A stretch of 64,000 bases of DNA from Nitrospirillum viridazoti CBAmc (GTDB lineage: Bacteria > Pseudomonadota > Alphaproteobacteria > Azospirillales > Azospirillaceae), in the NCBI RefSeq assembly GCF_000730165.1, contig NZ_CP022112.1, positions 1,280,001 through 1,344,000 of the forward strand, in the 5' to 3' direction. Every line of letters begins with the position of its first letter. Position 1 is the stretch's first letter. The notes beneath the pieces were generated by a model. That model was not told where the DNA came from. It searched no databases and worked only from the letters and a program-made list of their open reading frames with translations. Shown here in pieces: positions 32,925 through 53,358 of this stretch. Made by a program: the position numbers and the translations under genes.

Positions 32925-32978
32925 CGGGATCACATATCGCAAAGATGGAGAGGGTCAAAAAATGGGGATGGTTAGACG

Positions 32979-35438: not shown

Positions 35439-35533
35439 ACCACCCCCAACACCTTGTCCCCCCGATACGGGGAACCCTTCGATTTGCGGCCGCCGGCGGG
35501 CACCACCAGATGGCGATGCCCGCCAACTTCCCC

Positions 35534-38266: not shown

Positions 38267-38459
38267 GCTCCAAGCCCCCCTGTTTTTTGATCGTGGACAT
38301 ACCACTTTGCGGCATATCTCTCGCCGATTAATACCAATCGAAGCCAACTTGCGTCAAGCGCTTCGTTGCAGATTCCCTACCATGCTAGCAATAAGGCGAA
38401 GGGATTCCGGATAGATCTGCGTCGACAGAGAGAGATGCCGACCAAGAGGTGGACTCTAT

Positions 38460-38492: not shown

Positions 38493-39731
38493 TCAGCCCA
38501 GCATGTCCCGCGCGGCCAGCAGGGCGTCGGCCAGGCGGTCGACCTCGGCAGGCGTGTTGTACAGCGCGAAGGAGGCGCGGCAGGTGGCGGTGACACCGAA
38601 GCGGGCCAGCAGCGGCTGGGCGCAATGGGTGCCGGCGCGCACGGCAACGCCGAAGCCATCCAGGATGGTGGCGACATCCAGGGGATGGGCGCCGCCCAGG
38701 GTGAAGGCTAGGATGGGCCCCTTCCCCGCCGCCGTGCCGATCAGGCGCAGTGAGGGGATGGCGGCCAGACGCTCCTGCGCGTAGGCCAGCAACCCCGCCT
38801 CATGCGCGGCGATGGCGGCGGGACCCACGCCGCGTAGGTAGTCCAGGGCGGCGCCCAAGCCGATGGCCTCGACGATGGGCGGGGTACCGGCCTCGAACCG
38901 GTGGGGCGGCTCGGCATAGGTGACGGTGTCGCGCGTCACCTGGCGCACCATCTCGCCCCCACCCAGCACGGGCGGCAACCGCCGCAGCCACGCCGCCTTG
39001 CCGTAGAGGGCGCCGATGCCGGTGGGGCCGTAGAGCTTGTGACCCGTCAGGACATAGAAATCGACATCCAGGTCGCGCACGTCCGCGCCCAGGTGGACGG
39101 CCCCTTGCGTGCCATCGGCCAGCACGGGGATGCCCCGGCCGTGGGCCAGGCGCACAATGTCGCGCAGCGGCGTCACCGTGCCCAGGACGTTGGACATGTG
39201 GGTGATGGCGACCAGCCGCGTCCGGGGCGTCAGCGCCCGTTCCACCGCGTCCAGCGCCAGGCCGCCCTCCTCATCCACATCCACCCATTTCAGCACGGCG
39301 CCGTGACGCTCACGCAGGAAATGCCAGGGGATGATGTTGGCGTGATGCTCCATGACCGAGAGCACGATCTCGTCCCCCGGCTGGACGATGGCCTCGCCAA
39401 AGGCGTGGGCCACCAGGTTGATGGCCTCCGTCGCCGATTTGGTGAAGACGATCTCCTCCGCGCTTTCCGCGTTCAGGAAGGCGCGGACGCTGTCCCGCGC
39501 CCGCTCGAACCCGTCCGTCGCCCGGTTGGCCAGGGTGTGGGACCCACGATGGACATTGGCGTATTCGGCGTAGATGGCCTGGGTCATGCGGTCCACCACC
39601 GCGCGCGGCTTCTGCGCCGAGGCGGCGTTGTCCAGATAGACCAGCGGCCCGCCCTCGACCTCCAGCGACAGGATGGGGAAGTCGGCGCGCAGGCGGTCGA
39701 CGTCGTATGGGGTCGTCACGGTTCCGTCCAT
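38493..39731 (-). CDS. sufS: Cysteine desulfurase, SufS type
   Basis: A 412-residue PLP enzyme that removes sulfur from cysteine as an enzyme-bound persulfide. Landmarks: VYLDNAASAQKPRAVV, the PLP lysine in LTGHKLYGPTGIGALYG, HHANIIPW, and the persulfide Cys in VRAGTHCAQPLL. The group-II/SufS length and the nearby SufE indicate the SufSE pair. The ATG at 39731 follows GGGAGG; a GTG one codon upstream is possible. Odd point: no sufBCD, iscU or iscA is nearby. A MoaD-like carrier, MoeB-type E1 and SufE are, so the sulfur may go to a carrier protein and not to Fe-S clusters. Confidence 0.93.
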   Translation of the reverse strand: MDGTVTTPYDVDRLRADFPILSLEVEGGPLVYLDNAASAQKPRAVVDRMTQAIYAEYANVHRGSHTLANRATDGFERARDSVRAFLNAESAEEIVFTKSATEAINLVAHAFGEAIVQPGDEIVLSVMEHHANIIPWHFLRERHGAVLKWVDVDEEGGLALDAVERALTPRTRLVAITHMSNVLGTVTPLRDIVRLAHGRGIPVLADGTQGAVHLGADVRDLDVDFYVLTGHKLYGPTGIGALYGKAAWLRRLPPVLGGGEMVRQVTRDTVTYAEPPHRFEAGTPPIVEAIGLGAALDYLRGVGPAAIAAHEAGLLAYAQERLAAIPSLRLIGTAAGKGPILAFTLGGAHPLDVATILDGFGVAVRAGTHCAQPLLARFGVTATCRASFALYNTPAEVDRLADALLAARDMLG

Positions 39732-39761
39732 CACCGCCTCCCTTCCCTGGCTCCCGGCCGT

Positions 39762-40952
39762 TCAGATGGTGCCCTGGTCGCGCAGCCGCTCGACCTCCGC
39801 ATCGTCGGCGCCCAGCCATTCCTTCAGGATGTCGCCGCTGTGCTCACCGATGGCCGGGGCGCCGTGGCGCACGCTGGTGGGCGTTTCCCACAGGCGCACG
39901 GCCGGCGCCTGGAAGGGGACGGAGCCCAGGACGGGATGGGGCACGTTGATGATCTGCTCGCGCGCCACCACCTGGGGATTGGTGACGACATCAGCGATGG
40001 TCGCCACCCGCTCGCACGGCACCTCGGCCTCATGCAGGCGGGCCAGGATGGTTTCGCCGTCCAGGGTCAGCGCCCATTCGTTGATGATGCTTTCCAACAG
40101 GCCGACATTGGCGTTGCGCGCCACGAAGGTGGAAAAGCGCGGGTCCTGCACCAGGCCCGGCATGCCCATGGCATTGGCGAAGCGGGGGAAGTGGGCGTCG
40201 TTGCCGGCCACGACGTAGATCCAGACGCCATCGCGGGCGCGGAAGCAATGCGAGGGCGAGAGGTAGCGGTCGCGGTTGCCCAGGCGCGGCGGCGCCGCCC
40301 CGTTCAGCAGATATTCCGGGATAGCCGTGGTCATCAGCGCCATCCCGCTGTCCATCAGCGTCGCCTCCACCACCTGGCCCCGCCCCGTCTTCCCCCGCGC
40401 CTGCAGGGCGGCCAGGGCGCCGATGGTGGCATAGAGGGCGGTGGTGTAATCACAGACGAAGACACCGGACATGGTGGGCGGGCCGTCATGGGCGCCGGTC
40501 ATGCTCATGATGCCGCTGATGGCCTGGGCGGCGCCGTCGAAGCAGGGATGCTGCGCCAGCGGCCCCTTCTGCCCGAAGCCGGTGACGCGCACCAGGATCA
40601 GGCCGGGGTGGGCCTCGCTCAGCACATCCCAGCCCAGGCCCATGCCCTCCAGCGTGCCCGGCCGGAAATTCTCGATGAGGATGTCGGCCTTGGCCGCCAG
40701 GCGGCGGATCAGGGCCTGGCCGTTCGGGTCGCGGAAATCGACGGCGAAGCCGCGCTTGTTGCGGTTGGCGGACAGGAAGAACAGGGTGTCGCCGGCCACA
40801 GCCTCCCCCACGCGGCGGCCGTCCTCGCCCCCATCGATGCGTTCCACCTTCACCACGTCGGCGCCCAGATCGCCCATCAGCTGGCCGCAGAACGGACCGG
40901 CGATGTATCGCGTCATGTCAAGAACGCGAATACCGTCAAGTGATCCCAGCAT
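39762..40952 (-). CDS. CaiB/BaiF family CoA-transferase
   Basis: A 396-residue family III CoA-transferase that moves CoA between carboxylic acids. Landmarks: the N-terminal GIRVLDMTRYIAGPFCGQL, LGADVVKVERIDGGED, NKRGFAVDFRDPNGQ, ENFRPGTLEGMGLGWD and the conserved Asp in FVCDYTTALYATIGAL. The ATG at 40952 follows GAGGTG; an upstream in-frame codon at 40988 is less likely. It lies 30 bp upstream of sufS on the same strand and diverges from the MoaD-like gene. Its substrate and link to sulfur metabolism are unknown; an unusual neighbour for sufS. Confidence 0.93.
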   Translation of the reverse strand: MLGSLDGIRVLDMTRYIAGPFCGQLMGDLGADVVKVERIDGGEDGRRVGEAVAGDTLFFLSANRNKRGFAVDFRDPNGQALIRRLAAKADILIENFRPGTLEGMGLGWDVLSEAHPGLILVRVTGFGQKGPLAQHPCFDGAAQAISGIMSMTGAHDGPPTMSGVFVCDYTTALYATIGALAALQARGKTGRGQVVEATLMDSGMALMTTAIPEYLLNGAAPPRLGNRDRYLSPSHCFRARDGVWIYVVAGNDAHFPRFANAMGMPGLVQDPRFSTFVARNANVGLLESIINEWALTLDGETILARLHEAEVPCERVATIADVVTNPQVVAREQIINVPHPVLGSVPFQAPAVRLWETPTSVRHGAPAIGEHSGDILKEWLGADDAEVERLRDQGTI

Positions 40953-41046
40953 AGTCACCTCGCCTTTTTCTATAGAACGACCAGACACGATAGGCTGTTG
41001 AAATCATCATGCCGATGAGCAATAGTATCCGAAACAGGAGGCAGCC

Positions 41047-41298
41047 ATGCGCATCGCTTATTTTTCCTGGCTTCGCGCCAAGACCGGCACCGCATCGGAA
41101 CAAATAGACTTGCCGCAGAACTGTAACACGGTGAACGATCTGATCGATTACCTGTCTGGCCGGCATCCGGCCCTGGCGGAAATCGCCACCGCGCAGGGCA
41201 GCCTGCGCTACACCGTCAACCGCCGCTATGTCGAGAAATCGCATCCGCTGACGGCGACGGATGAGGTGGTCCTGTTCCCGCCCGTCACCGGCGGCTGA
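41047..41298 (+). CDS. MoaD/ThiS-like sulfur carrier ending in Gly-Gly
   Basis: An 83-residue beta-grasp protein with the exposed C-terminal GG that an E1 adenylates. MRIAYFSWLRAKTGTASE matches the MoaD N-terminal strand-loop; VNDLIDYLSGR is the helix; YTVNRRYVEKSHPLTATDEV and VLFPPVTGG are the MoaD-like C-terminal strands. AGGAGG five bases before the ATG is the best ribosome-binding site of this region. Its 3' 73 bases overlap the 3' end of the convergent E1 gene. It could be molybdopterin synthase small subunit, but no moaE, moaA or moaC is in the window. Confidence 0.9.
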   Translation: MRIAYFSWLRAKTGTASEQIDLPQNCNTVNDLIDYLSGRHPALAEIATAQGSLRYTVNRRYVEKSHPLTATDEVVLFPPVTGG

Positions 41299-42068
41299 CC
41301 GGCTTTTCCTTCCTGGGCCGCCCCGCAGCAGGGACAATTCTCCCGGCGTGGCAGTTCCACCTTGGTGACGTCGCAGCTCCAGGCGTCATACATCGCCAGG
41401 GTGCCGGACAGGCTGGGCTCCACGCCCAGAATCTCCTTGATCACCTCGATGGCCTGCAGGGCGCCCATGACGCCCACCGCCGGGCCCAGCACGCCGATTT
41501 CCGAACAGCTGGGCGCCAGCGCCGGCACCTCGGGATAGAGACAGCGAAAGCAGGGGTGAGAGCCCCCCAAATGGGATTTGAAGGTGGTCAGGATGCCGTC
41601 GGCCAGTTGCACGGCGGCGCTGACCAGGACGATGCCGGCCCGGCGGCAGGCGGCATGCACCGCGTCGCGGGTGGCGAAGTTGTCGCAGCCGTCGGCCACA
41701 ATGTCGTACTGGGCCACCAGCGCGTCCGCGTTCCCCGCGTTCACCGGCACCGCGTGTTCCACCAGCCGCACATGCGGGTTGATGCGGGCCAGCGTGAGGG
41801 CGGCACTCCGCACCTTGGGCATGTCCAGCCGGTCGACGCCGTGCAGGATCTGGCGATGCAGGTTGGACGGCTCGACACAGTCGTAATCAGCGAAGCCCAG
41901 CGTGCCCACCCCCGCCCCGGCCAGGTACATCAGCAGGGGGGAGCCCAAGCCGCCGGCGCCGATGACCAGCACGCGCGCAGCCTTCAGCCGGGCCTGGCCA
42001 GCGGCGCCGATCTCCGGCAACACCACCTGGCGCCGATAGAAACTGGCCTCATCAGGAACGGTCGACAT
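41226..42068 (-). CDS. MoeB/ThiF-type E1 adenylyltransferase
   Basis: 280 residues, normal MoeB length. RQVVLPEIGAAGQARL is followed by the nucleotide motif GAGGLGS, then NLHRQILH, the adenylation Asp in DGCDNFATR, zinc pairs CFRC and CPCC, and the active Cys in SCSEIGVLGP. It adenylates the C-terminal Gly of a beta-grasp carrier such as the convergent MoaD-like protein. The ATG at 42068 follows GGAGG; a GTG one codon upstream is the alternative. The last 24 codons lie antisense to the carrier's tail. sufE follows 34 bp upstream in the same direction. There is no rhodanese domain, so SufS/SufE may supply sulfur. Confidence 0.92.
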   Translation of the reverse strand: MSTVPDEASFYRRQVVLPEIGAAGQARLKAARVLVIGAGGLGSPLLMYLAGAGVGTLGFADYDCVEPSNLHRQILHGVDRLDMPKVRSAALTLARINPHVRLVEHAVPVNAGNADALVAQYDIVADGCDNFATRDAVHAACRRAGIVLVSAAVQLADGILTTFKSHLGGSHPCFRCLYPEVPALAPSCSEIGVLGPAVGVMGALQAIEVIKEILGVEPSLSGTLAMYDAWSCDVTKVELPRRENCPCCGAAQEGKAGQPPVTGGNRTTSSVAVSGCDFST

Positions 42069-42102
42069 CACCCAGGCCTCCGGTTCCGGTTTTCTTGATG
42101 GC

Positions 42103-42546
42103 TCAGGCCGCGGCGGCGGCCTCGCGGATGCGCTTCACGATCAGATGCACGCCGTTGGCCCGGCTGGGCGCGAGGTTGCGCCCAACGGCCAGCCGGTCCA
42201 GCACCGCTGGACTGTGGGCCAGGATCGCGGCGGGCGGCCGGCCGTCATACAGCCGCAGCACCAGGGCCAGCAGGCCCCGCATGATCAGGGCGTCGGAATC
42301 CGCCCGGATACGCAGGGCCGCCGGCGTCCGCTCGATCACCAGCCACAGTTGCGACTGGCAGCCGGTGACCTGGTCCTGGTCCCGGCGCTGCTGCGGCGGG
42401 ATGCCGTCCAGGGCGCGGCCCAGGTCCATCAGGTGCTTCAGGCGGGCGGACCAATCGTCCAGCCCGGCGAACTCCGCCTCCAGCGCCGCGGCGGCGGCGT
42501 CGATGTCCGCGACGGTGAATACGGTGGGGTCGGCTAGGTCGGTCAT
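42103..42546 (-). CDS. sufE: SufE family sulfur acceptor
   Basis: A 147-residue SufE. It takes persulfide sulfur from SufS and passes it on. The acceptor Cys is in VTGCQSQLWLVIE. ARLKHLMDLGRALDGIP, ADSDALIMRGLLALVLRLYDG and SRANGVHLIVKRIRE are all family segments. It lies between anmK (17 bp) and the E1 gene (34 bp) on the same strand, so it probably reads as anmK-sufE-E1. Its separation from sufS by only 2.4 kb supports a local SufSE pair. Confidence 0.93.
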   Translation of the reverse strand: MTDLADPTVFTVADIDAAAAALEAEFAGLDDWSARLKHLMDLGRALDGIPPQQRRDQDQVTGCQSQLWLVIERTPAALRIRADSDALIMRGLLALVLRLYDGRPPAAILAHSPAVLDRLAVGRNLAPSRANGVHLIVKRIREAAAAA

Positions 42547-42563: not shown

Positions 42564-43688
42564 TCAGCGCTTGTGCCGCGCCACGATGCCGCCCGTCATG
42601 GGCGCCTTAACCCCCGTGGTCTTGGGGAAGCTGATGGGCAGGCCGGCCAGCACGCGGGCGGCGAGATAGGCGAAACACTCCGCCTCCACCGCGTCGCCGC
42701 GCCAGTCCACCGCCTCGGCCGGCACGGCCTCGATCTTGGCACGCTCGCCCAGGGCGGCCATGATGGCCGGGTTCTTGCGGCCGCCGCCACAGACGATCAG
42801 CTTGGTCGGGCGGGTGGGCAGCAGGTCCAGCGAGCGCCCAACCGTGCCCGCCGTGAAAGCGGTCAGGGTGGCGGCGCCATCCTCCAGCGACAGGCCATCG
42901 GCCATGTCGGCGGTGAAGTCGTAGCGGTCCAGCGACTTCGGGTATGCCGCCGACAGGTAGGGATGGTCCAACAGGCGGGCCAGCCGCGCCTCATCCACCC
43001 GGCCGCGCCGGGCGATGGCGCCGTCCACATCCATCTCCCCAGCCCCGTGGCGCATGATCCAGTCATTGATGGGACCATTGGCCGGGCCGGTGTCGAAGGC
43101 CTCGAAATGGTCCTTGCCGTCCCACCAGGTGACGTTGCCCACGCCACCCAGGTTCAGGGCCGCGACCTCAGGCCCGGCGTGGACCCGCTTCAGCAGGGCG
43201 GCGTGGTAGCTGGCGGATAGGGGCGCGCCGTGGCCGCCCGCGCGCATGTCGGCAGTGCGGAAGTCATAGACGACGTCGATGCCCAGGATGTCCGCCATCA
43301 GCTGACCGTCGCCCAACTGGCGGGTGTCGCCGAAGCGGCCGGGAACCGGCGCGCGGTGCAGCACCGTCTGGCCGTGGAAGCCGACGGCCGCCACCTCATC
43401 CGGCCGCATGCCGTTCTCAGCCAGGAACTGGGCCACCGCCTCGGCCTGGGCGCGGGACAGGGCCCGTTCCGCCTCAGCGAAAATCGGGGGCTCCGCGCCC
43501 TCGAAGCGCCAGGTGAGCGCCTGGGCCACCGCCTCCCCCAAAAGGCCGCGCAGGTCCGTCGGATAAGGGGCCAATTTCCAAGGACCAAAGTCGAACACAT
43601 GGACGCCATCCGTGCGGATGCACGCGATATCGATCATCCCGTCCAGCACTGTGCCCGTCATCAGGCCGATGGCCCACATCGGTTGCAT
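42564..43688 (-). CDS. anmK: Anhydro-N-acetylmuramic acid kinase
   Basis: A 374-residue sugar kinase that opens and phosphorylates 1,6-anhydro-MurNAc to MurNAc-6-P, the substrate of MurQ. The phosphate loop is [17 protein letters not shown] (a variant of GLMSGTSLDG); [48 protein letters not shown] and [11 protein letters not shown] are AnmK family segments. The ATG at 43688 follows AGGGAG. It belongs functionally with the murQ operon 9 kb away but sits in a block with sulfur-carrier genes. Probably single promoter, with sufE and the E1 gene downstream. Confidence 0.95.
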
Positions 43689-43751: not shown

Positions 43752-44777
43752 TCAGGCGTATTGGCGGGCAGGCTCGCGCCCGTCCGCACGCCGCAACGCG
43801 GCGGTATGCTTGGCGTGGATCTCACCCTCCGGCTTGCGGCAGCCGGCGCAGAGCAGGATGGATTGCCGCCCGTCCTCCGCCATGCGGCGCCGGAAGTCGA
43901 CGGCGCGGCCCACCACGGTTTCGGCCGTCTCCGTCATCAGGTTGCCGACGACGCCCTGGGCGCCGTGGCTGATCACGCAGATCGACGTCTCGCCATCCGG
44001 AGCCATGCACAGGGTGTGGCCAGCCCAGAAGCAGGCGCCGGTGGGCACGGGCAGGGACGGGTTGATGTCCTGCGACATGCGCCGGTGCAGCGCCTCGTCA
44101 CTTTCCAGGTCATCCAGCTCCCGGATCTTGTGGTGGGCGCCGCCCGGCAGCAGGGGCGTGACCTTCACATGGTTGTCCACCCGCGCCACCAGCTCCAGGA
44201 ACTCCGAATCATAGTCCTCAAGCGGTTCGTTGAGGTCGATCTGGTACACCCCCACGCGGACATGGCCATGGTCCCGGCCGCGCAAGTCCAGCAAGGTCCG
44301 CAGGCCGCGCATGGTCTTCTGGAACGAGCCCTCACCCCGGTTCAAATCATGGCTGGCCTGGTTGCCGCCATCGATGGACACGTAAATGGTGTGGGAGTAA
44401 GGCACCGCCAGAATTTCCTTAACCCGTTTGGGCGTCAGCAGCGTACCATTTGTATGCCATTGGAGGGGGGAGTGGGGCAAAAGTCGCCGCGTAATGGCCA
44501 ACAATTCAGCGAAATACGGATTCATCAAGGGTTCACCACGCCAATTCAGGTGTATTCCCTTGACCTTCATCGCTGATGACGTGGCCAGTTTTATCAGTAC
44601 TTGTTCAAGATCATCAGGCTCCAGATCCAATTTCCCATGGCTTTGCTTTGTATAGCAAAGACGACAGGACAAATTGCACCGGGTTGTCGGATCCAACCAT
44701 AGCCATATTGGATGTATCTGGTCAGACTGGTCATGCAATGGTTTGAACAACGTACACCTCCGACCGTTTATTGTCAT
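43752..44777 (-). CDS. Radical SAM/SPASM-type protein
   Basis: A 341-residue radical SAM enzyme. The 4Fe-4S/SAM site is CNLSCRLC (Cys-x3-Cys-x2-Cys) after WLWLDPTTR; HLNWRGEPLMNPYF and TNGTLL are core strands. A SPASM-like C-terminal region has four or more cysteines (ACFWAGHTLC, TSICVISHG, LCAGCRKPEGE). SPASM proteins often modify peptides or proteins; the substrate is unknown. The ATG at 44777 was chosen because the sequence upstream is AT-rich and promoter-like; the frame stays open to 44969. The 5' third has much lower GC than the 3' half. Its neighbours are anmK (downstream) and a divergent PP2C phosphatase. Confidence 0.88.
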   Translation of the reverse strand: MTINGRRCTLFKPLHDQSDQIHPIWLWLDPTTRCNLSCRLCYTKQSHGKLDLEPDDLEQVLIKLATSSAMKVKGIHLNWRGEPLMNPYFAELLAITRRLLPHSPLQWHTNGTLLTPKRVKEILAVPYSHTIYVSIDGGNQASHDLNRGEGSFQKTMRGLRTLLDLRGRDHGHVRVGVYQIDLNEPLEDYDSEFLELVARVDNHVKVTPLLPGGAHHKIRELDDLESDEALHRRMSQDINPSLPVPTGACFWAGHTLCMAPDGETSICVISHGAQGVVGNLMTETAETVVGRAVDFRRRMAEDGRQSILLCAGCRKPEGEIHAKHTAALRRADGREPARQYA

Positions 44778-45004
44778 ACAGGGGCGGCCCGTTGAGCCCC
44801 AGGCGGGAAGGATGTCGTGCCCAGATGTGTACCAGATTAATACCATAAAGACATCACTAAATTCACACGATATGGGTGGAAAAGATTTAAGGCGGCGAAG
44901 AGACTGGCCCGGATCGCGGAAAACGGGTGGCCCGGGACGCGAGGCAGAGACGCGAGGCCAGGCCGCCACGGGCCCAGGCCATCACGGGCAAGGAGGAGGA
45001 ACGG

Positions 45005-45853
45005 TTGCTGCAGGTCTGCGCGTTGATTTCGGATGCCGGCGGCCCCTTGCCCAACGAGGACGCGGCCGGCCATCACGGTGATTGGGCTTGGGTCATTGAC
45101 GGGGCCACGGGCGTCAGCGGCGCCACCATCGAGGGCTTGAGCGACGCCGCCTGGTTCGCCCGCGCCGTGGACCAGACCCTGCGCCGTGTCCTTCCCGACA
45201 GCGGGCACCTGCCCACCGATGCCGTGCTGCGCCGGGTGGTGGAGGACTGCACCCAGGCCTTCGCCCAGGCGACGCGCGATGTTCCCCGGGCGTGGCACGA
45301 GCGGCCGTCCGCCGCCTTCGCCCTGCTGCGGCGGTTGGGCGAGCGGCTGGAGATGACCACCCTGGGCGACTGCCAGATCATCCACCGCGCCGAGGACGGC
45401 CAAGCCCGCGTCTTCGGCGCCTCCGCCATTCCCGCCTTCGAGGAACGCACCCTGGCCGCCGCCCGCCGGGCGCTGGATGAGGCGCCCGACCTGACACCGG
45501 CGGGCCTGTGGGACCAGGTGGTGGACCAGTTGCGCGCCAACCGCCGCTGCATGAACGCCGGAGGCGGCTATTGGGTGCTGAGCACCGACACGGACGCCCT
45601 GGCCCATGTCGACCGTGCCACCATCCCAGTGGACGGCGGCCCAGTGGCGCTGGCCAGTGACGGCTTCCTGCGCCTGATCGACATGTTCGGCCGGGCGACG
45701 GCGGCGGATTTCCTGGGCCTGGACGATCAAGCCAAGGCGGAATCCGCCCTGCGGGACCTGCGGCGCATCGAGGCCGCGGACGATCCCCACCATGGCCATC
45801 TGCGGCTGAAGCGGTCAGACGACGCCAGTTTCATCCTGGTGCGCCCAGCCTGA
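45005..45853 (+). CDS. PP2C-family protein phosphatase
   Basis: A 282-residue metal-dependent Ser/Thr phosphatase. Metal-site motifs run in order: NEDAAG, WVIDGATG, the LASDGFLRL strand and C-terminal DDASFILV. The start is decided by the ribosome-binding site: AAGGAGGA stands just before TTG at 45005; the frame is open to a GTG at 44927 but has no such site. Signals that would recruit it to a partner kinase are not seen; no Hanks kinase is in the window. It diverges from the radical SAM gene (227-bp gap) and ends 3 bp before the convergent sugar-kinase stop. Confidence 0.9.
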   Translation: MLQVCALISDAGGPLPNEDAAGHHGDWAWVIDGATGVSGATIEGLSDAAWFARAVDQTLRRVLPDSGHLPTDAVLRRVVEDCTQAFAQATRDVPRAWHERPSAAFALLRRLGERLEMTTLGDCQIIHRAEDGQARVFGASAIPAFEERTLAAARRALDEAPDLTPAGLWDQVVDQLRANRRCMNAGGGYWVLSTDTDALAHVDRATIPVDGGPVALASDGFLRLIDMFGRATAADFLGLDDQAKAESALRDLRRIEAADDPHHGHLRLKRSDDASFILVRPA

Positions 45854-45856
45854 AGA

Positions 45857-46726
45857 TCAATCCGACGCCCGCCCCGCCAGCGCCAGGGCGCCTGTCATGG
45901 CATCACCCAGGGTGGGTGACAGGCGGCGGCGCACGTCGGGGGCCAGCCAGGCCTCCAGGGCGCTGGCCAGGCCGCCGATCAGGCTGACGCGCGGCGCCCC
46001 TTCGGCCAGCAGCGCCCGCACCAAGCCGTTCACATGCTCCGCCGCGTCCTGCACCACGTGGCGGGCCACGGCGTCGCCCTGGTCGGCCTGACGCAGCACG
46101 AGGGGGGCGAAGGTCGCGTAGTCGGTGGCCGTCGACCGGTCCATCCACAGCACCACCTCCGCCGGGTCATCCTGGAAGCGGGCCATCAGCTCCCGCGTCA
46201 GGACGCTGCCGCCCTCGCGCCCGTCATGGGCGCGCAGGCTGTGCTGCAGGGCCCTCAGGCCCAGATAGGCGCCGCTGCCCTCGTCGGAGATGGGGAAGCC
46301 ATAGCCGCCGAACTTCATCTCCCGCCCGTCGATACGGCCGATGGCGCATGTGCCGGTGCCGACGATGACGATGCCGCCATCCCGGCCCCCGTGCGCGCCC
46401 AGGCAGGCGATCATGGCGTCGCTGGTGAAGGCGATGCTGGCATAGGGGTGGCGGATGGCCTCCAGCGCCGCGCGGGCGCCCTTGCGGCCGATGCCGGCCA
46501 CGCCCACGCCGGCGCGGATGCGGCCCACCTGCGTCCCATTCAGTCCGGCCTCCTCGATGGCGTGGCGGGCCGCCGTCTCGATGGCCTGCCACGACGCCTC
46601 GATGCCGAAACGGGTGGCGGCAGGGCCGGCGATGCCCTGCCCCAGGACGGTGCCGGCCGCATCCTCCAGCCGCGCGCGGCAGCCGGTGCCGCCGCCGTCC
46701 ACGCCCAAGTACAGCGCGTCGTCCAT
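45857..46726 (-). CDS. BadF/BadG/BcrA-type sugar kinase, GlcNAc kinase-like
   Basis: A 289-residue ASKHA-fold kinase. The N-terminal phosphate loop is YLGVDGGGTGCRARL, followed by AGIGRKGARAAL, the SDAMIACLGAHGGRDGGIVIVGTG segment around the hinge, and FPISDEGSGAYLGLRAL. These are typical of bacterial N-acetylglucosamine/glucosamine kinases (NagK/GspK-like) of this family. The ATG overlaps the murA stop (ATGA), so the two are coupled. In the aminosugar context it probably phosphorylates free GlcNAc to GlcNAc-6-P; an alternative amino-sugar substrate is possible. Confidence 0.87.
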   Translation of the reverse strand: MDDALYLGVDGGGTGCRARLEDAAGTVLGQGIAGPAATRFGIEASWQAIETAARHAIEEAGLNGTQVGRIRAGVGVAGIGRKGARAALEAIRHPYASIAFTSDAMIACLGAHGGRDGGIVIVGTGTCAIGRIDGREMKFGGYGFPISDEGSGAYLGLRALQHSLRAHDGREGGSVLTRELMARFQDDPAEVVLWMDRSTATDYATFAPLVLRQADQGDAVARHVVQDAAEHVNGLVRALLAEGAPRVSLIGGLASALEAWLAPDVRRRLSPTLGDAMTGALALAGRASD

Positions 46727-47988
46727 CAGCCGGGCACCCGCTCGATATCGGCGCCGCAGCGCACCAGCTTGCGCGCCAAATCCTCATAGCCCCGGTCCAG
46801 GTGATAGACGCGGTTCACCACCGTCTCCCCCTCCGCCACCAGCCCCGCCAGGATAAGGCAGACCGAGGCGCGCAGGTCCGTCGCCATGACGGGCGCACCG
46901 CGCAGCCGCTCCACCCCGCGCACCAGCACGGATGTGCCCCGCAGGGTGAGGTCGGCGCCCAGGCGCGCCAGTTCCGGCACATGCATGAAGCGGTTCTCGA
47001 AGATGGTCTCGCGGATCATGGCCGCCCCCTCCGCCACCGACATCAGGGCCATGAACTGGGCCTGCAGGTCGGTGGGGAAGCCGGGATAGGGTTCGGTCGA
47101 GACGTCGGTGGCGCGCAGATGCCCCGCCCGTTCCACCATCAGGCCCCGGTCGGTGGGATAGACGCTGACCCCCGCCCGCTCCAGGATCTGGCATTGCACC
47201 GCCAGGTGCTCCAGACGGGCGCCAATCAGTTCCAGCCGGCCGCCGGTGATGGCGGCGGCCACGGCATAGGTGCCGGCCTCGATGCGATCGGGAATCAGCG
47301 TGTGCGTCGCCGGACGGAAGCTGGCCGGCCCCTGCACCAGGATGCGCTGCGTGCCAGCACCCTCGATATGGGCGCCCATGGCCACCAGGCAGGCGGCGAG
47401 GTCCGCCACCTCCGGTTCGCGCGCGGCGTTCAGGATTTCCGTTTCGCCCCGCGCCGTCACGGCGGCCATCAGCGCCGTCTCCGTGGCGCCCACCGAGGGC
47501 AGGGTCAGGACAATGCGGCCTCCAGCCAGGCCGCCGTGCGGCGCCCGGGCGGTGACATAGCCGCCATCCACCGCCACCTCGGCGCCCAGGGCGGTCAGCG
47601 CCTTCAGGTGCAGGTCGATGGGCCGCGCGCCGATGGCGCAGCCGCCGGGCAGGGAAACGCGGGCGTGCCCGAAGCGGCCCAGCAGGGGCCCCAGCACCAG
47701 GGCCGTCGCCCGGGCGCGACGCACGGTGTCGTAATGCGCCTCGGCATTCACGGCGGCCGCAGCGTCCAGCGTCACCTGGTGGGCCTGTCCGCGCGTCACC
47801 CGCACGCCATAGCCGCCCGCCAGCACCTGCATGGTTTCCACGTCGGTGATGGCCGGCAGGTTGGCCAACGTCACCGGCCGATCACTCAACAGGCTGGCGG
47901 CGATCAGGGGCAGCGCCGCGTTCTTGGCGCCAGCGATGTCCACCGTGCCAGCCAGCCGCCGCCCGCCGCGGATGATCAAGCGATCCAT
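46726..47988 (-). CDS. murA: UDP-N-acetylglucosamine 1-carboxyvinyltransferase
   Basis: 420 residues, normal MurA length. It transfers enolpyruvate to UDP-GlcNAc, the first committed step of peptidoglycan synthesis. DIAGAKNAALPLIAASLL is the N-terminal signature; LPGGCAIGARPIDLHL holds the fosfomycin-target Cys; YPGFPTDLQAQFMALM and IFENRFMHVPEL are the second-domain segments. It overlaps the GlcNAc-kinase gene, not the usual biosynthetic context known for alphaproteobacteria. It may be the sole murA or a second, recycling-linked copy; the rest of the genome would decide. A promoter is needed in the 133-bp gap to the ubiquitin-like gene. Confidence 0.95.
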   Translation of the reverse strand: MDRLIIRGGRRLAGTVDIAGAKNAALPLIAASLLSDRPVTLANLPAITDVETMQVLAGGYGVRVTRGQAHQVTLDAAAAVNAEAHYDTVRRARATALVLGPLLGRFGHARVSLPGGCAIGARPIDLHLKALTALGAEVAVDGGYVTARAPHGGLAGGRIVLTLPSVGATETALMAAVTARGETEILNAAREPEVADLAACLVAMGAHIEGAGTQRILVQGPASFRPATHTLIPDRIEAGTYAVAAAITGGRLELIGARLEHLAVQCQILERAGVSVYPTDRGLMVERAGHLRATDVSTEPYPGFPTDLQAQFMALMSVAEGAAMIRETIFENRFMHVPELARLGADLTLRGTSVLVRGVERLRGAPVMATDLRASVCLILAGLVAEGETVVNRVYHLDRGYEDLARKLVRCGADIERVPG

Positions 47989-48121: not shown

Positions 48122-48427
48122 ATGCCTGCTGCACCGATCCATCCAAGCTTGACCCCAGATCAGGCCCCCGATCAAGCCGGCCCGACCCAGACCGCCGGCG
48201 CCACCTGCGAAATCTTCATCAACCGCCGCCGCTTCGCCATCGGCAACCAGATGGTGACCGCCGCCGACATCGCCGCCCTGATGGGCGTGCCGGCGGACAA
48301 TGCGGTGGTTGAACGCAGTGACCCCACCGGCGAGTGGGTGGCCCTGCCCCTGGCCGACACCCTGGACATCCACTCGGGCGACACCTTCCTGGTCACCCGC
48401 CAGTTCGTGATGGGTGGGCATGGCTGA
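48122..48427 (+). CDS. Ubiquitin-like (multiubiquitin-type) protein with masked Gly-Gly
   Basis: 101 residues. After a disordered Pro/Gln-rich N-terminus (1-27), residues 28-96 form a beta-grasp pattern: strand CEIFINRRRFAIG, helix TAADIAALMGV, strands VERSDPTGEWVALPL and SGDTFLVTRQFV. It resembles the single-domain multiubiquitin group (from memory). The end is MGGHG: the di-glycine (98-99) is followed by His-Gly and must be trimmed by a protease before activation. The JAB-E1 gene overlaps it by 8 bp. The ATG at 48122 was preferred over an upstream frame opening at 48035. TATACT at 48068-48073 is a candidate -10. Confidence 0.82.
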   Translation: MPAAPIHPSLTPDQAPDQAGPTQTAGATCEIFINRRRFAIGNQMVTAADIAALMGVPADNAVVERSDPTGEWVALPLADTLDIHSGDTFLVTRQFVMGGHG

Positions 48428-49913
48428 GCGACTCTCCCCGAACGGCAAGCCCTACCGCGCCACGCCCACAGGCTTGCTGCGCCTGGCCTCACCGGAGAAG
48501 GAGGCGCTGTTCGCCACCGCCTTCACGGGACAGCCGGATCGGGAGGGCGGCTGTTTCGCCCGTTTCGGCTGGAGGGTGACAGGCACGCATCTGGCCATAA
48601 CCCTGGCCGCCATCGACACACCGCTGCCGGGCGATATCGAGGGCGGCGGGGCAGAGATCAAGATCACGGCCAACGCCCTGCGCCGCGCCGCCCTGGCGGC
48701 CAGCGACCATCCGCTGGCCGTCGGCTTCATCCACGCCCATCCCGCCAGCGTGGCGCCCAAGCCCAGCGCCCTGGATGACGAGATGGACCGCTACATGGCC
48801 GGCTATTTCGCCGACCTGGTCCCCGGCCGCCCCTTCGTCAGCCTGATCGTCGCCAAGATCGGCAACGACACCGCCATTTCCGGCCGCATCTTCTACGACG
48901 ACGCCTGGCATGAGATCGGCCGCGTGGCGGCGGAGCGGGACCCCACCGTGATGGCCTGGCCGCAGGGGGAACCACCGCCGGAGCCGCCCATCCCGCCGGA
49001 GCGGGTGGCCCGCCTGACCAGCGCCTTCGGGCGGGAGGCGTACCAGCGCCTGCAGCGTTCCACCGTCGCCCTGATCGGCGCCGGCGGCACCGGCTCCGCC
49101 GCCATTCCCATCCTGGCGCGGGCCGGCGTGGGCCGCCTGATCATCATCGACAGCGACCACGCCTCGGAATCCAATCTGGAACGGCTGCACGGCAGCACCC
49201 CGGCCGACGTGGCCAACCGCGTGCCCAAGGTCACCATCGCCAAGCGCTCCGTCGCCGAATATGCCCCCGGCACGGTGGTGGAGGCCATCAACGGCCGCCT
49301 GCCGCAACCCGAGGTGCTGGACGCCGTGCTGCAGGCCGACGTGCTGATGGGCTGTACCGATCAGCATTCCAGCCGCATGGCGGTGGCCGATATCGCCACC
49401 CGCTACCTGATCCCGGCGGTGGATTGCGGCGGCCTGATTGAGGGGCGCGACGGTATCGTCACCGGACAGCTGGTGCAGATCGTCCGCTTCCTGGCGGCCG
49501 ACCCCTGCCCCCGCTGCCGCGGCATGATCTCCGCCACCCGGGTGATGCAGGAGATGCTGCCCGTGGTGGAGCGACTGGCCCCGGCGGACCAGGCGGCCCT
49601 GGCGGCGGCGCGTGGCGAGCGGCCGGACCCCATCCTGACCGCCGTGCCACAGATCGACACCGTGGGCTACATCACCACCACGGCCGGAACGCTGGCGGCG
49701 GGTTTCGTCATCGGCTGGCTGACCGGCCGCTTCTCCCCCACCTTCGAACGGCTGCAACTGGATCTCGTGTCGGACTGCCTGGGCGCCGTGGATCGGCCGC
49801 AGCGCGCCCGGCCGGGGTGCAGCTGCACCACCACGCGCGGCTATGCCGACCAGGCGGCCGACGCGGCGCCGTTCCAGCCACCCGCCCACTGGCCCGCCCC
49901 AGTCCGGCCGTAA
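48420..49913 (+). CDS. JAB/JAMM protease fused to E1 (ThiF-type) adenylyltransferase
   Basis: 497 residues. The N-terminal JAB domain (about 10-165) has His105-x-His107, then SxxD with Asp119 (one residue longer than the canonical spacing) and Glu79 as the likely acid. The E1 domain (about 195-450) has the nucleotide loop GAGGTGS (220-226), IDSDHASESNLERL with Asn252 and Arg255, and Asp314 in GCTDQHSSR. Cys363/Cys366 (CPRC) and Cys467/Cys469 (GCSC) probably bind zinc. The Cys expected before the G of a MoeB-like CxxxG is missing (PQIDTVG at 410-416). It could trim the Ubl's His-Gly tail and then adenylate the exposed Gly-Gly. No E2 is present. Confidence 0.9.
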   Translation: MAERLSPNGKPYRATPTGLLRLASPEKEALFATAFTGQPDREGGCFARFGWRVTGTHLAITLAAIDTPLPGDIEGGGAEIKITANALRRAALAASDHPLAVGFIHAHPASVAPKPSALDDEMDRYMAGYFADLVPGRPFVSLIVAKIGNDTAISGRIFYDDAWHEIGRVAAERDPTVMAWPQGEPPPEPPIPPERVARLTSAFGREAYQRLQRSTVALIGAGGTGSAAIPILARAGVGRLIIIDSDHASESNLERLHGSTPADVANRVPKVTIAKRSVAEYAPGTVVEAINGRLPQPEVLDAVLQADVLMGCTDQHSSRMAVADIATRYLIPAVDCGGLIEGRDGIVTGQLVQIVRFLAADPCPRCRGMISATRVMQEMLPVVERLAPADQAALAAARGERPDPILTAVPQIDTVGYITTTAGTLAAGFVIGWLTGRFSPTFERLQLDLVSDCLGAVDRPQRARPGCSCTTTRGYADQAADAAPFQPPAHWPAPVRP

Positions 49914-49923
49914 GGGGCCGCCT

Positions 49924-50973
49924 CTAGAATCCCGGCCCGGCCACCGGGCGGTGGCAGGAACAGCCGACGAAATGGCTCGACAGCGCCTCCAGCGAGCGCA
50001 GCTGCGCGCCGTTGGTCACATGGTCCTCCCCCGCCGCCGGCTCCACCTCCAGCACCAGGTCGCCGTCGGTGCCGAAGCGGGCCGGCAGGTCGGCGAAGGG
50101 CAGGCTGCCGGTACCCAATTCCAGCCCTTCGGAGGAGATGGCGCGCACCAGGGCGGCCGCATCCAGGCCCGGATCGGCGCAGGCGCGTTCATCTAGGCGG
50201 ATGGCGTCGGAGACGTGCAGATAGCTCATCCGCTCATCCACGAAATCGAAGGGATCCAGCCAAGCCGTCCGGTCCAGGTCATCAGCGGTGATCCAGCCGA
50301 AACGGGCGTCGCCGTCGGTCAGGCGCGGCTGGGCGCGGCGGCGGTTGAACAGGTTGGCCGACAGGGTGGCGTGCGCCACGTCGATGAACGGCTCCACCCC
50401 CGTCAGCCCGTGCCGGTCCAGCGCCTCGCGGAAGCGTGCAATCTCCCACGGAAAGAAATGGTCCAGCGGCCCGGTCATGTAGGTGCGGCCGTCGCGGGGC
50501 AGCAGGGAATAGTGGCCGACATTCTCCACCAGCAGCCGCATGCCGCCCGCCAGGCGCGCCAGGTCGCGCACCGCCTCCTCAAAGCCCTGCGCGGCCTCGT
50601 CCCGGTCGTGGGCGCGGGGCGGGGCCTGGCCGAAGACCATATCGAAATAGCGGTGCAGGACGACAGCCTGGGCCCCGATCTCTGCCGCGAAGGCCAGAGT
50701 ATGCCGGCATTGGTCGGCATCGAAGCCGACCCGGGTGACCAGGGGCACCGACTGCGGCGGGATGTGAACGATCAGCGCGTCCACCGGAAATTCCTGTCGC
50801 AACCGGGCGATATTCTGCCGGGCGAGGGCGAGACCGGCGGCGGAGGTCACGTCCCGCTCCCCAAAGGTGTGCAGCTCCAGCCGTACCGGTCGCCCCTGGG
50901 AGACGAGATAGGCGGCGCGCGCGGCCAGTTGGCCGTAATCGGCCACGGCGGCCTTCAGGACAAGGTTGGGCAT
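49924..50973 (-). CDS. TIM-barrel protein, xylose isomerase/AP-endonuclease-2-like
   Basis: A 349-residue sugar isomerase/epimerase-type TIM barrel. Likely metal ligands are Glu in LLVENVGHYS, Asp/His in FIDVAHATLS, His/Asp in YLHVSDAIR and Glu in LEVEP, following the endonuclease-IV-like pattern. The ATG at 50973 follows GGGGAGGTGAG; the upstream frame to 51012 is not needed. It faces the JAB-E1 gene tail to tail (10 bp) and diverges from the oxygenase-like gene at 51131. It may be part of the same pathway as the Ubl/E1 module; this is inference. Confidence 0.8.
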   Translation of the reverse strand: MPNLVLKAAVADYGQLAARAAYLVSQGRPVRLELHTFGERDVTSAAGLALARQNIARLRQEFPVDALIVHIPPQSVPLVTRVGFDADQCRHTLAFAAEIGAQAVVLHRYFDMVFGQAPPRAHDRDEAAQGFEEAVRDLARLAGGMRLLVENVGHYSLLPRDGRTYMTGPLDHFFPWEIARFREALDRHGLTGVEPFIDVAHATLSANLFNRRRAQPRLTDGDARFGWITADDLDRTAWLDPFDFVDERMSYLHVSDAIRLDERACADPGLDAAALVRAISSEGLELGTGSLPFADLPARFGTDGDLVLEVEPAAGEDHVTNGAQLRSLEALSSHFVGCSCHRPVAGPGF

Positions 50974-51130
50974 GCTCACCTCCCCGCCGGATCGCTGACG
51001 CCAGGGTGGCACGGCCGGCCAACCTGGACAAGCTGGTATTCATATGGTATGCAACCAGTGGTCCGGCGGCCTGCCTCAGGCGGGGTTGCCGACCCTTCCG
51101 TTCAGGACAAGAACACCGGGGGCAGGCCCC

Positions 51131-52345
51131 ATGCCGGAAACAGGGTTGGAACCAGTGTTGGATGCGCCGCCGGTGGCTGACGACCTGTCGCCCGTCGGCA
51201 TCCTGGACCGCACCCGCCAACTGCTGCCCCTGGTCGACAACCTGAAGGCGGAGGGGGAGCGTCAGCGCCGAGCCCCCGCCGCCCTGATCGACGCCATCAA
51301 ACAGGCTGGCCTGTTCCGCCTGTTGCAGCCCCGCCGTTATGGCGGCGCCGAATGTCATCCCGCCACCTTCTTCGCCGTGCAGGCCGCGTTGTCTGCCGGG
51401 GACATGTCCGTCGGCTGGCTGCAGGGCGTCATGGGCATGGTGGCCTTCCACCTGGCGCTGTTGCCGGCGGAGGCGCAGGACGATGTCTGGCGCGATGATC
51501 CGACGGCGCTGCTGGCCTCCAGCTACATGCCGGCGGGCAAGGCGACCCGGGTACCGGGCGGCTTTCGCCTCACCGGCCGCTGGGGTTTCTCCAGCGGCGC
51601 CGACCACGCCGACTGGTTCATGCTGGGCGCCATGGCGGTGCTGGAAGGAGAAGGGCCGGAGCATGTTATTTTCCTGGTGCCGCGCGCCGACGTGCGCATC
51701 CACGACACCTGGGACACCATCGGGCTGCGCGGCACGGGCAGCCACGACGTGTCGGTGGAGGACGGCTTCGTCCCCGCCCACCGCCGCCACGGCGTGCAGG
51801 AACGTTTCCTGATTGGGGGACCGGGCCGGGCGGTGAACCTGGCGCCGCTCTATCATATTCCCCTGCCCCAGATGCTGTTCCGCGCCATTTCCACCCCGGC
51901 GCTGGGCGGCCTGCGCGGCATGCTGGACGCCTTCATCGAGCATAGCCGCCGGCGAGCTGGCCCCAACGGCGGCGGCCCCCTGGTGGACCCCGTGGCCCAG
52001 CTGGCCTGCGGCGAGACGGCGGCGGAGCTGGATGAGATGACCCACACCCTGGAAGGCAATTTCGACCGTATGCTGGACCATGCCCGCCAGGGCCGGGACG
52101 CGCCCATCCCCGACCGCATGCTGTATCGCGTCCAAGCCACCTCGGTGGTGGAACGATGCGACCGGCTGGCACGGCGCCTGTTCAAGGCCGCCGGCGCCTC
52201 CGCCCTGTCGGTCGCCAACCCGCTAGGGCGCGTCTGCGCCGACATCCAGGCCGCCCGCCAGCACGCCGCCAACCAATATGAGATCTATGGCCGGACGCTG
52301 GGCGCCCACCTGTTCCAACTGGACGTGAAGGATACTTTGCTTTGA
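51131..52345 (+). CDS. Acyl-CoA dehydrogenase-fold flavin-dependent oxygenase-like protein
   Basis: 404 residues with the acyl-CoA dehydrogenase fold. It resembles the two-component flavin hydroxylase group (HsaA/HpaH-like) more than beta-oxidation enzymes. LIDAIKQAGLFRLLQPRRYGGAE, AALSAGDMSVGWLQGVMG, FRLTGRWGFSSGADHADWFM and GLRGTGSHDVSVED are family segments. C-terminal VVERCDRLARRLFKAAGASAL and RVCADIQAARQHAANQYEIYGR match that group. The ATG at 51131 comes after GGGGGCAGG; the frame is open to 51044. Its stop overlaps the DegT start (TTGA), so translation is coupled. Possible hydroxylase of a small-molecule intermediate. Confidence 0.82.
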   Translation: MPETGLEPVLDAPPVADDLSPVGILDRTRQLLPLVDNLKAEGERQRRAPAALIDAIKQAGLFRLLQPRRYGGAECHPATFFAVQAALSAGDMSVGWLQGVMGMVAFHLALLPAEAQDDVWRDDPTALLASSYMPAGKATRVPGGFRLTGRWGFSSGADHADWFMLGAMAVLEGEGPEHVIFLVPRADVRIHDTWDTIGLRGTGSHDVSVEDGFVPAHRRHGVQERFLIGGPGRAVNLAPLYHIPLPQMLFRAISTPALGGLRGMLDAFIEHSRRRAGPNGGGPLVDPVAQLACGETAAELDEMTHTLEGNFDRMLDHARQGRDAPIPDRMLYRVQATSVVERCDRLARRLFKAAGASALSVANPLGRVCADIQAARQHAANQYEIYGRTLGAHLFQLDVKDTLL

Positions 52346-53358
52346 GCGGACAGCCGGACCAAAACCCCTCCCCGCCCCTGCCCTTCAGCCTGGGCTACGA
52401 CGACCGGGATGAGGAAGAGATCATGCGCCGCTGGCGCGCCATCCTGCGGTCCAACAAGTGGAGCCACGCCGCTTATCTGGAAGAGTTCGAGGATGCCTGG
52501 CGGGCGTGGAACGAACTGCCGGCGGTCGCCTTCGACAATTGGGCCGGCGGCGCCATGGCCGTGCTGGACCATTTCAAGGTCCGGGGCGCCACCGTGCTGT
52601 GCCCGTCCAACACCTTCCTGGCCACGCCCCGTGCCGCCCAGCTGTCGGGGGCGGAGGTGGTGTTCTACGACTGCAACCGCCACGATTTGTGCGGGTCCTT
52701 CGATGATTTCGTGGCCAAGGCGGAACGGCATCGTCCGGCCCTGGCCTTCATCGTCCATATCGGCGGCCACATTGCCTTCGACATCCACAAGATCGCGGCC
52801 TATTGCCGGGACAAGGGCATCATCCTGGTGGAGGATTGCGCCCATGCCGTAGGCGCCGACTGGAACGGGCAGAAGCCGGGCAGCTTCGGCGATGCCGGCA
52901 TCTTCTCCCTCTACGCCACCAAGACCATCACCACCGGCGAAGGCGGCGTGGTGGTCAGCCGCCATGAGGACGTGCTGCGCCACGCCCGGTCCTACCGCGA
53001 TTACGGCCGTGGCTCGGGCTACAAGGTGCAAAGCCTGAACCACCGCATGGATGAGTTCCGCGCCGCCTTCGGCACCGTTCAAATCCGGCGCATGCCGGAA
53101 ATCGTGGCGTGGAAGCAGACCTACGCCCGCGATGTGCTGGACCCGCTGTACCCCGACCGGGTGCGCCTGCCGGAGGGCATGAGCAGCGGCTTCTACAAGT
53201 ACATCGTCTTCCAGAGCATCCCCACCTCGACCGGCAAGGTCTACGAGCTACCCTGCCATCGCATCATGGGGGTGGAGGCCGACCTGCCGAACACGGAGTG
53301 GGTGGCCAAGAACCACTGGTGCGTGCCGCTGTATTACCCTCGCTCATCGCCGGATTAA
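52342..53358 (+). CDS. DegT/DnrJ/EryC1/StrS-family aminotransferase
   Basis: 338 residues of the sugar-aminotransferase (SHMT-like) family, which transfers an amino group to keto-sugars or related compounds with PLP. LCPSNTFLATPRAAQLSGAE, DIHKIAAYCRDKGIILVEDC (the PLP Asp), AHAVGA, and the PLP lysine in SLYATKTITTGEGGVV are clear. The start is TTG at 52342, inside the TTGA overlap with the previous gene, with AAGGA upstream. N-terminal residues up to about 15 are Pro-rich. A strong hairpin terminator follows at 53378. Substrate unknown; the neighbour may be its pathway partner. Confidence 0.9.
   Translation: MSGQPDQNPSPPLPFSLGYDDRDEEEIMRRWRAILRSNKWSHAAYLEEFEDAWRAWNELPAVAFDNWAGGAMAVLDHFKVRGATVLCPSNTFLATPRAAQLSGAEVVFYDCNRHDLCGSFDDFVAKAERHRPALAFIVHIGGHIAFDIHKIAAYCRDKGIILVEDCAHAVGADWNGQKPGSFGDAGIFSLYATKTITTGEGGVVVSRHEDVLRHARSYRDYGRGSGYKVQSLNHRMDEFRAAFGTVQIRRMPEIVAWKQTYARDVLDPLYPDRVRLPEGMSSGFYKYIVFQSIPTSTGKVYELPCHRIMGVEADLPNTEWVAKNHWCVPLYYPRSSPD

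Follow-up and report, generated by a model that had tools for sequence, protein, structure and literature searches.

Ubiquitin systems are thought to derive from sulfur carriers. In the formation of thioquinolobactin (Qbs) and pyridine-2,6-dithiocarboxylic acid (Pdt), a carrier with a capped Gly-Gly is accompanied by a JAMM protease and by an E1 fused to a rhodanese. Operons combining a ubiquitin-like protein (Ubl) with a JAB-E1 fusion were already described as type 6e in 2006, with a solo Ubl listed for one species (Iyer et al., PMC1779556). The Bub pathway (BubA/BubB/BubCD; PDB 9ea4, 9ea5, 9ea8, 9eae, 9eav) has the same kind of fusion, and part of the Bub operons are accompanied by CapW, CapH+CapP or CapK+CapS regulators (PMC13373217). 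We infer that Bub and type 6e operons are of the same kind. Here, a two-gene Ubl/JAB-E1 pair was analysed in a stretch of 64,000 nucleotides from Nitrospirillum viridazoti CBAmc (the window; contig NZ_CP022112.1, positions 1,280,001 to 1,344,000, forward strand), in which the two genes overlap by 8 bases:

48122..48427, + strand: single beta-grasp ubiquitin-like protein (Ubl), 101 aa, Multi_ubiq family, ending ..FVMGG-HG
48420..49913, + strand: JAB-E1 fusion, 497 aa, with JAB/JAMM at about residues 18-170 and ThiF/E1 at about residues 195-470, the latter with CxxC and CxC

The pair probably stems from a Bub/type 6e module that lost its E2-like partner, and would now work as a JAB-matured sulfur carrier for a sulfur-containing metabolite. 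This reading is favoured because eleven genes, the pair among them, were kept together in two orders despite rearrangement (Rhodospirillales for Nitrospirillum, Hyphomicrobiales for Terrarubrum flagellatum), because the MoeB, MoaD and SufS genes of the cluster track JAB-E1 in the same four of seven Nitrospirillum genomes, because Gly-Gly of the Ubl is conserved and its tail is not, because the JAMM and adenylation residues are intact, because no Bub-type E2-like partner was found and no DUF6527 in the window, because E1 residues 367-460 hold no shared Cys and the column of the Bub Tyr is Ala or Val, and because a type III CoA-transferase together with sulfur carriers, capped in part, has been described for thiocarboxylic acids (PMC6006322).

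The window Ubl scored 24.8 bits (E = 2.6e-5) against Pfam Multi_ubiq, barely above the curated cut-off of 24.5, and the Terrarubrum Ubl remained under it (13.8 bits, E = 0.069). Ubls of Bub/type 6e operons are of the Multi_ubiq type with one to three beta-grasp units, of which the window protein has one. Its AlphaFold model, built from 4 sequences, had the beta-grasp order of elements at a mean pLDDT of 78.9. Structural matches were modest (two at E ≤ 0.001): ranks 1, 2, 3 and 5 were multi-ubiquitin proteins and a BubA domain (E 2.7e-4 to 1.7e-3; the BubA domain at rank 3, E = 1.4e-3), and a large number of further ubiquitin-like folds came after them. The ratio of nonsynonymous to synonymous substitution rates (dN/dS) of the Ubl was 0.44-0.47 (3 pairs of Nitrospirillum strains).

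All four Nitrospirillum Ubls terminate in GGHG, and the block FLVTR-x-FV-x-GG is common to the Nitrospirillum and Terrarubrum proteins. The earlier note on this DNA had named random ends of homologous Ubls as a refutation; the Gly-Gly is kept in Terrarubrum and the residues past it are not, as ten residues follow there in place of His-Gly. By these alignments, the conserved boundary is Gly-Gly rather than the tail, so that 2 or 10 residues would need removal if Gly-Gly is used. The His-Gly codons in Nitrospirillum share bases with the E1 start codon (GGGCATGGCTGA), and conservation of these two residues within the genus is therefore no independent evidence of a protease site. Among eight other Ubls adjoining JAB-E1 genes, Gly-Gly closes the Ubl unit in five, with short free tails in Paracoccus (GGAA) and Celeribacter (GGAE), and with an E2-like domain following directly in the same protein in three planctomycetes (L060:2849-4075, L061:8916-10022 and L062:8844-9965, each beside JAB-E1). 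The remaining three (L051, L054, L055) have their terminus in or near a single Gly, L055 being fused to an E2-like domain as well. Where a Ubl is fused to an E2-like domain, its end can be freed only by a cut.

The JAB-E1 protein measures 497 aa from its ATG, or 499 aa from an upstream GTG at 48414, and carries the JAB domain N-terminally of the E1, as Bub/type 6e proteins do. The ThiF match was strong (E = 3.6e-34); Prok-JAB was weak in the window protein (18.6 bits, cut-off 25), and with 27.2 bits the Terrarubrum homologue passed this cut-off. Of the JAMM residues, H105, H107, S116 and D119 were identical in all ten aligned JAB-E1 proteins and E42 in eight. The checked residues NxxR, K and D of the E1, which we take to be adenylation residues by their role in MoeB, were likewise identical in 10/10 homologues. 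Between four Nitrospirillum strains (6 pairs), dN/dS was 0.01-0.07 in the E1 and 0.22-0.45 in the JAB portion, and the pair goes well beyond chance open reading frames (ORFs). An open frame of 466 aa runs antisense to JAB-E1 (48489-49889, - strand), most likely as a consequence of high G+C; homologues in two phyla and the low dN/dS of the E1 support the reading on the + strand. Within E1 residues 367-460, the window protein has one Cys and the Terrarubrum protein zero, hence none in common; the CxC near the C-terminus is also found in the planctomycete clade. Neither JAB-E1 nor the MoeB of the cluster had a rhodanese match at E ≤ 1.

The earlier note had placed both ORFs correctly, and its reading of them as a masked Gly-Gly Ubl and a JAB-E1 fusion agrees with the ..FVMGGHG terminus, the conserved Gly-Gly, the ThiF match and the complete JAMM motif; the conservation of JAB residues, which it had named as a check, is evident from the alignment above. 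Its view of the protease-E1 fusion as the unusual feature is not supported, as Bub/type 6e operons normally have this architecture. Novelty of the fusion itself was likewise rejected, since BubCD and the type 6e operons precede it. What is new is the surroundings of the pair, a conserved cluster of sulfur enzymes.

Kinship with Bub proteins was apparent in sequence and model. The best solved sequence relatives of JAB-E1 were the Citrobacter BubCD chains (phmmer E = 1.7e-17, E1 part only, residues 206-340). The same chains took Foldseek ranks 1-8 for the JAB-E1 model (about 450 columns, TM 0.32-0.38); that model is poor (mean pLDDT 53.6), and the match therefore supports only domain order and kinship. 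The Paracoccus JAB-E1 matched BubCD over both domains (E = 1.3e-39) within an operon of Multi_ubiq, E2/UBC, ThiF and DUF6527, and a Methylomagnum Ubl-E2 fusion matched multi-ubiquitin proteins and BubB (E = 5.8e-9). The tree, built from 17 JAB-E1 proteins and 2 MoeB outgroup rows, placed Nitrospirillum and Terrarubrum in one clade (support 100/99), with three planctomycete JAB-E1s beside Ubl-E2-like fusions as its sister (100/99); the root of this tree is unsure owing to long-branch warnings for L066, L068 and for the outgroup versus the Nitrospirillum/Terrarubrum clade. One E1 column, corresponding to Y370 of BubCD by a count assuming a two-residue tag, is Tyr in all five Bub-type sequences, Ala in the window, Val in Terrarubrum, and Ala, Val or Glu across the five members of the window clade (Nitrospirillum, Terrarubrum and the three planctomycetes). 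That this Tyr is a defining residue is suggested by the name of a deposited mutant. Mobile surroundings were seen for two Bub-type loci: in Celeribacter (L053:2151-3422) an IS256 transposase separates the E2-like gene from JAB-E1, and in Roseomonas (L056:1539-8930) IS21 elements flank JAB-E1 on both sides.

The closest solved relatives of both proteins are members of Bub/type 6e operons. Neither the window nor 42 kb around the Terrarubrum cluster contained a Bub-type E2-like domain when scanned with a profile built from eight E2-like domains and with three leave-out variants of it (best window E = 0.56), and the left-out E2 groups used as positive control were recovered at E = 6.5e-13 to 2.9e-4. 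The DUF6527 profile gave no window match at E ≤ 5 and a best value of E = 0.045 in the Terrarubrum stretch, taken as chance; an independent control in L056 scored E = 3.9e-49. Thus, the earlier statement that no E2 lies nearby was confirmed for the Bub-type domain. Elsewhere, an E2-like protein or domain accompanies JAB-E1 in eight of nine other loci read (L051-L055 and L060-L062, not L056), a count that leaves aside the neighbours of L005 and L063-L068. The simplest reading is that the E2 was lost in the line of Nitrospirillum and Terrarubrum, because the planctomycete relatives (3/3) and the Bub-type rows L051-L055 have an E2-like partner; the tree rows L005, L063, L064, L066 and L068, whose neighbours are unread, stand outside this comparison.

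The frequency of E2-like partners at other JAB-E1 loci would also fit conjugation or transfer by means of an E2 whose gene lies at a distance, a possibility that the earlier note had considered, but Prok-E2_E, the one E2 family searched genome-wide, had no match at E ≤ 0.1 in any of the four Nitrospirillum genomes that have the pair, which makes this very improbable; a Prok-E2_E protein elsewhere in these genomes was rejected on this basis. The profile itself matched all four scanned E2-like proteins of JAB-E1 operons (E = 2.5e-47 to 2.4e-5, one just under the cut-off). Alternatively, JAB-E1 might attach the Ubl to one or more enzymes of the cluster independently of any E2 for their regulation, with JAB both maturing and removing the Ubl. 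The kinship with Bub/type 6e operon members, a JAB domain that could serve as deconjugase and a free-Gly-Gly MoaD/MoeB carrier already available for sulfur speak for such conjugation; the missing E2-like and DUF6527 partners of such operons, an E1 that lacks the Tyr of the five aligned Bub-type sequences, and neighbours that are sulfur and metabolic enzymes speak against it, and on the whole we regard it as unlikely.

The genes surrounding the pair are:

38493..39734, - strand: cysteine desulfurase of the SufS family; the genome has three SufS-like copies, this one included, and no counterpart was seen at the Terrarubrum cluster
39762..40988, - strand: one-domain type III CoA-transferase
41047..41298, + strand: second Ubl, a MoaD-like sulfur carrier of 83 aa with exposed C-terminal Gly-Gly
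41226..42071, - strand: MoeB/ThiF-type E1, of which the genome has two copies
42103..42546, - strand: SufE sulfur acceptor
42564..43688, - strand: AnmK, anhydro-N-acetylmuramic acid kinase family
43752..44969, - strand: radical S-adenosylmethionine (SAM) protein
44927-45853: PP2C-like phosphatase in mid-cluster, with a homologue beside AnmK in Croceicoccus (37%)
46726..47988, - strand: MurA paralogue, of which the genome has two copies; no counterpart seen at the Terrarubrum cluster
49924..51012, - strand: xylose-isomerase-like TIM-barrel protein, found only in this cluster in the searches made
51044..52345, + strand: flavin monooxygenase of acyl-CoA dehydrogenase (ACAD) fold, HsaA-like (under the NCBIfam cut-off)
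52342..53358, + strand: DegT/DnrJ/EryC1 pyridoxal phosphate (PLP) aminotransferase

A BadF-type kinase is also present in the Nitrospirillum cluster, and the scan of cluster proteins showed no acyl-CoA synthetase. On a plasmid of T. flagellatum, homologues of eleven genes, the pair included, lie inside 10.3 kb with changed order and orientation, at identities of 44-71% (Ubl 44%, JAB-E1 53%, MoaD 63%, MoeB 67%, SufE 50%, CoA-transferase 66%, DegT 66%, ACAD 50%, TIM-barrel 52%, radical SAM 64%, AnmK 71%). Within Nitrospirillum, JAB-E1 is present in four of seven genomes, with JAB-E1s 94-96% identical to one another, and cluster copies of MoeB, MoaD, SufS and MurA occur in the same four; the other three hold only more distant copies. 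For MoeB, MoaD and SufS, the genome holds further copies outside the cluster. The loci L057-L059 are by their coordinates the same genomes as G004, G002 and G003 and were counted once.

The cluster is rare. Full-length JAB-E1 was detected in 4 of the 82 family genomes, each of them a Nitrospirillum, and in 1 of 385 of the class. The TIM-barrel protein turned up once among 385 genomes of the class and once among 398 of the phylum, in both samples in the genome that holds the window. Of 72,556 plasmid records, 343 matched JAB-E1, two over at least 80% of the query and one with 53% identity; with the TIM-barrel and DegT proteins as plasmid queries, Terrarubrum was the only further cluster. A scan of genome contigs gave six JAB-E1 loci, three from Nitrospirillum and three from planctomycetes; as only two short peptide patterns were used, diverged relatives would be missed. 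Viral contigs yielded 3 pattern matches and no relative of the pair. No description of the cluster, or of a sulfur-containing metabolite to which it points, was found in the literature searched, which leaves out most subscription journals.

These data bear on two further explanations. A defence system merely located beside metabolic genes would be in keeping with Bub operons being held to be putative immune pathways, for which phage protection was not demonstrated (PMC13373217), and with a protein near the planctomycete L061 JAB-E1 that has a Piwi match under the curated cut-off (24.9 vs 28.9 bits). The PADLOC matches of JAB-E1, among those listed (25 of 30), are however all to E1-E2 families via the ThiF part, and the pair as part of a defence island was rejected because the eleven genes have remained linked in both orders although their arrangement differs; a role in defence is thus quite improbable. 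MoaD, MoeB, SufS and SufE are families of primary metabolism, as would suit a module mainly for a variant of cofactor or tRNA thiolation, but further MoaD, MoeB and SufS-like copies elsewhere in the genome and the rarity of the cluster, as counted for the TIM-barrel protein, leave this variant with hardly any probability against a specialised metabolite.

For the sulfur carrier, the following sequence of steps is proposed. The JAB domain would trim the Ubl past Gly-Gly (2 residues in Nitrospirillum, with a putative cut behind Gly99, and 10 in Terrarubrum), and the exposed Gly would be adenylated by the E1 domain. Persulfide sulfur from the cysteine desulfurase and SufE would then convert the Ubl-adenylate to a Ubl-thiocarboxylate. 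Beside the second carrier, MoaD/MoeB, the Ubl would donate this sulfur, in parallel with or after the MoaD/MoeB relay, to a small-molecule intermediate supplied by the aminotransferase, flavin monooxygenase, TIM-barrel protein and CoA-transferase of the cluster. We infer the product, and also that sulfur, and not a protein target, receives the activated Ubl.

Compared with the described systems, the pair shares with Bub a JAB-E1 fusion of similar size and domain order and a Ubl of the Multi_ubiq fold, including a Gly-Gly with short tail as in the Paracoccus and Celeribacter Ubls. It differs from Bub in that no Bub-type E2-like BubB or DUF6527 was found, in the missing E1 Tyr, in the CxC near the E1 C-terminus and in its place in a cluster of sulfur and amino-sugar genes. 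With Qbs/Pdt it has in common, as far as can be read from the sequence, a capped Gly-Gly carrier and a JAMM protease; it differs in that JAMM and E1 are one protein, in an E1 without rhodanese, in its own SufE (and SufS in Nitrospirillum) and second MoaD/MoeB, and in a Ubl of Multi_ubiq rather than the ThiS/MoaD family. The comparison with QbsE/QbsD/QbsC drawn in the earlier note has gained weight through the neighbouring SufS, SufE, second MoaD/MoeB and type III CoA-transferase. With MoaD/MoeB, the pair shares the adenylation residues and, likely, the adenylation chemistry; a MoaD/MoeB pair lies in the same cluster as a distinct unit, and the masked tail and the JAB domain set Ubl/JAB-E1 apart from it. 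For thiocarboxylic acids, a biosynthesis with a type III CoA-transferase and sulfur-carrier proteins, some of them capped, and with a JAMM protease in the genome has been reported (PMC6006322).

Several points weigh against the sulfur carrier. A second Ubl is unneeded for a single sulfur-transfer step, since a MoaD/MoeB carrier pair is already in the cluster, and the E1 has no rhodanese. The CoA-transferase is of one domain and no acyl-CoA synthetase was seen, unlike the thioplatensimycin thioacid cassette, which is described as a two-domain CoA-transferase plus acyl-CoA synthetase (PMC6006322); a thiocarboxylate is therefore only one possible product. Homologues of SufS, MurA, PP2C and BadF were not found in 42 kb around the Terrarubrum cluster, and the cluster occurs in two lineages only among what was searched. 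The co-occurrence in Nitrospirillum may reflect one gain or loss event, because the four carriers are close relatives, and AnmK departs from the pattern with a 92% homologue in G006, a genome without the pair. The distance from this homologue to a contig end of G006 is about 2.3 kb, and 20 kb were read without another cluster gene, with only a weak TonB match of 29%. The Tyr is also gone in the three planctomycete JAB-E1s adjoining an E2-like domain; as three of five Tyr-less members have such partners, its loss alone cannot tell carrier from conjugation.

Upstream of the sulfur genes, window positions 32199-38347 hold a GntR regulator, MurQ, an SSS symporter and a TonB receptor, which suggest uptake and breakdown of muramic-acid-containing sugars (the names BadF, SSS symporter and TonB receptor were assigned by eye, those of MurQ and GntR from their similarity to genes annotated in Terrarubrum). 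The Terrarubrum cluster adjoins MurQ, GntR and NagA. On a plasmid of Croceicoccus marinus (L069), homologues of AnmK, PP2C, radical SAM, SSS, TonB, MurQ, GntR and BadF lie inside 31 kb with no sulfur genes; because muramic-type genes occur there without any sulfur genes, the locus looks like a muramic-acid utilisation region with an added sulfur module, and for the same reason the AnmK, MurQ, BadF, SSS and TonB homologues may be a separate catabolic locus. The extra MurA (46726-47988) is about 60% identical to the other genome copy and could be a target duplicate or a self-protection gene; of the MurA homologue at G003:C1:37657-38727, only residues 64-420 match in one frame.

Taken further, and tentatively, since the whole is possible rather than probable, a Bub-type module would have shed its E2 and become a sulfur carrier in a two-carrier cluster (MoaD/MoeB plus Ubl/JAB-E1), in reversal of the path from sulfur carrier to ubiquitin. 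In that case, the product could come from a muramic-acid-related amino sugar, as its thiocarboxylate or another sulfur derivative, and the extra MurA could act as target or self-protection; that the product may derive from muramic acid is an idea taken only from the neighbouring genes. In the favoured reading as a sulfur carrier, the pair, which belongs to a conjugation-type family, appears to have returned to small-molecule sulfur chemistry, and the boundary between sulfur carrier and ubiquitin tag becomes testable in a compact two-protein system. Nitrospirillum are nitrogen-fixing plant associates, and for them the cluster points to a sulfur-containing metabolite, perhaps tied to the recycling of cell-wall amino sugars.

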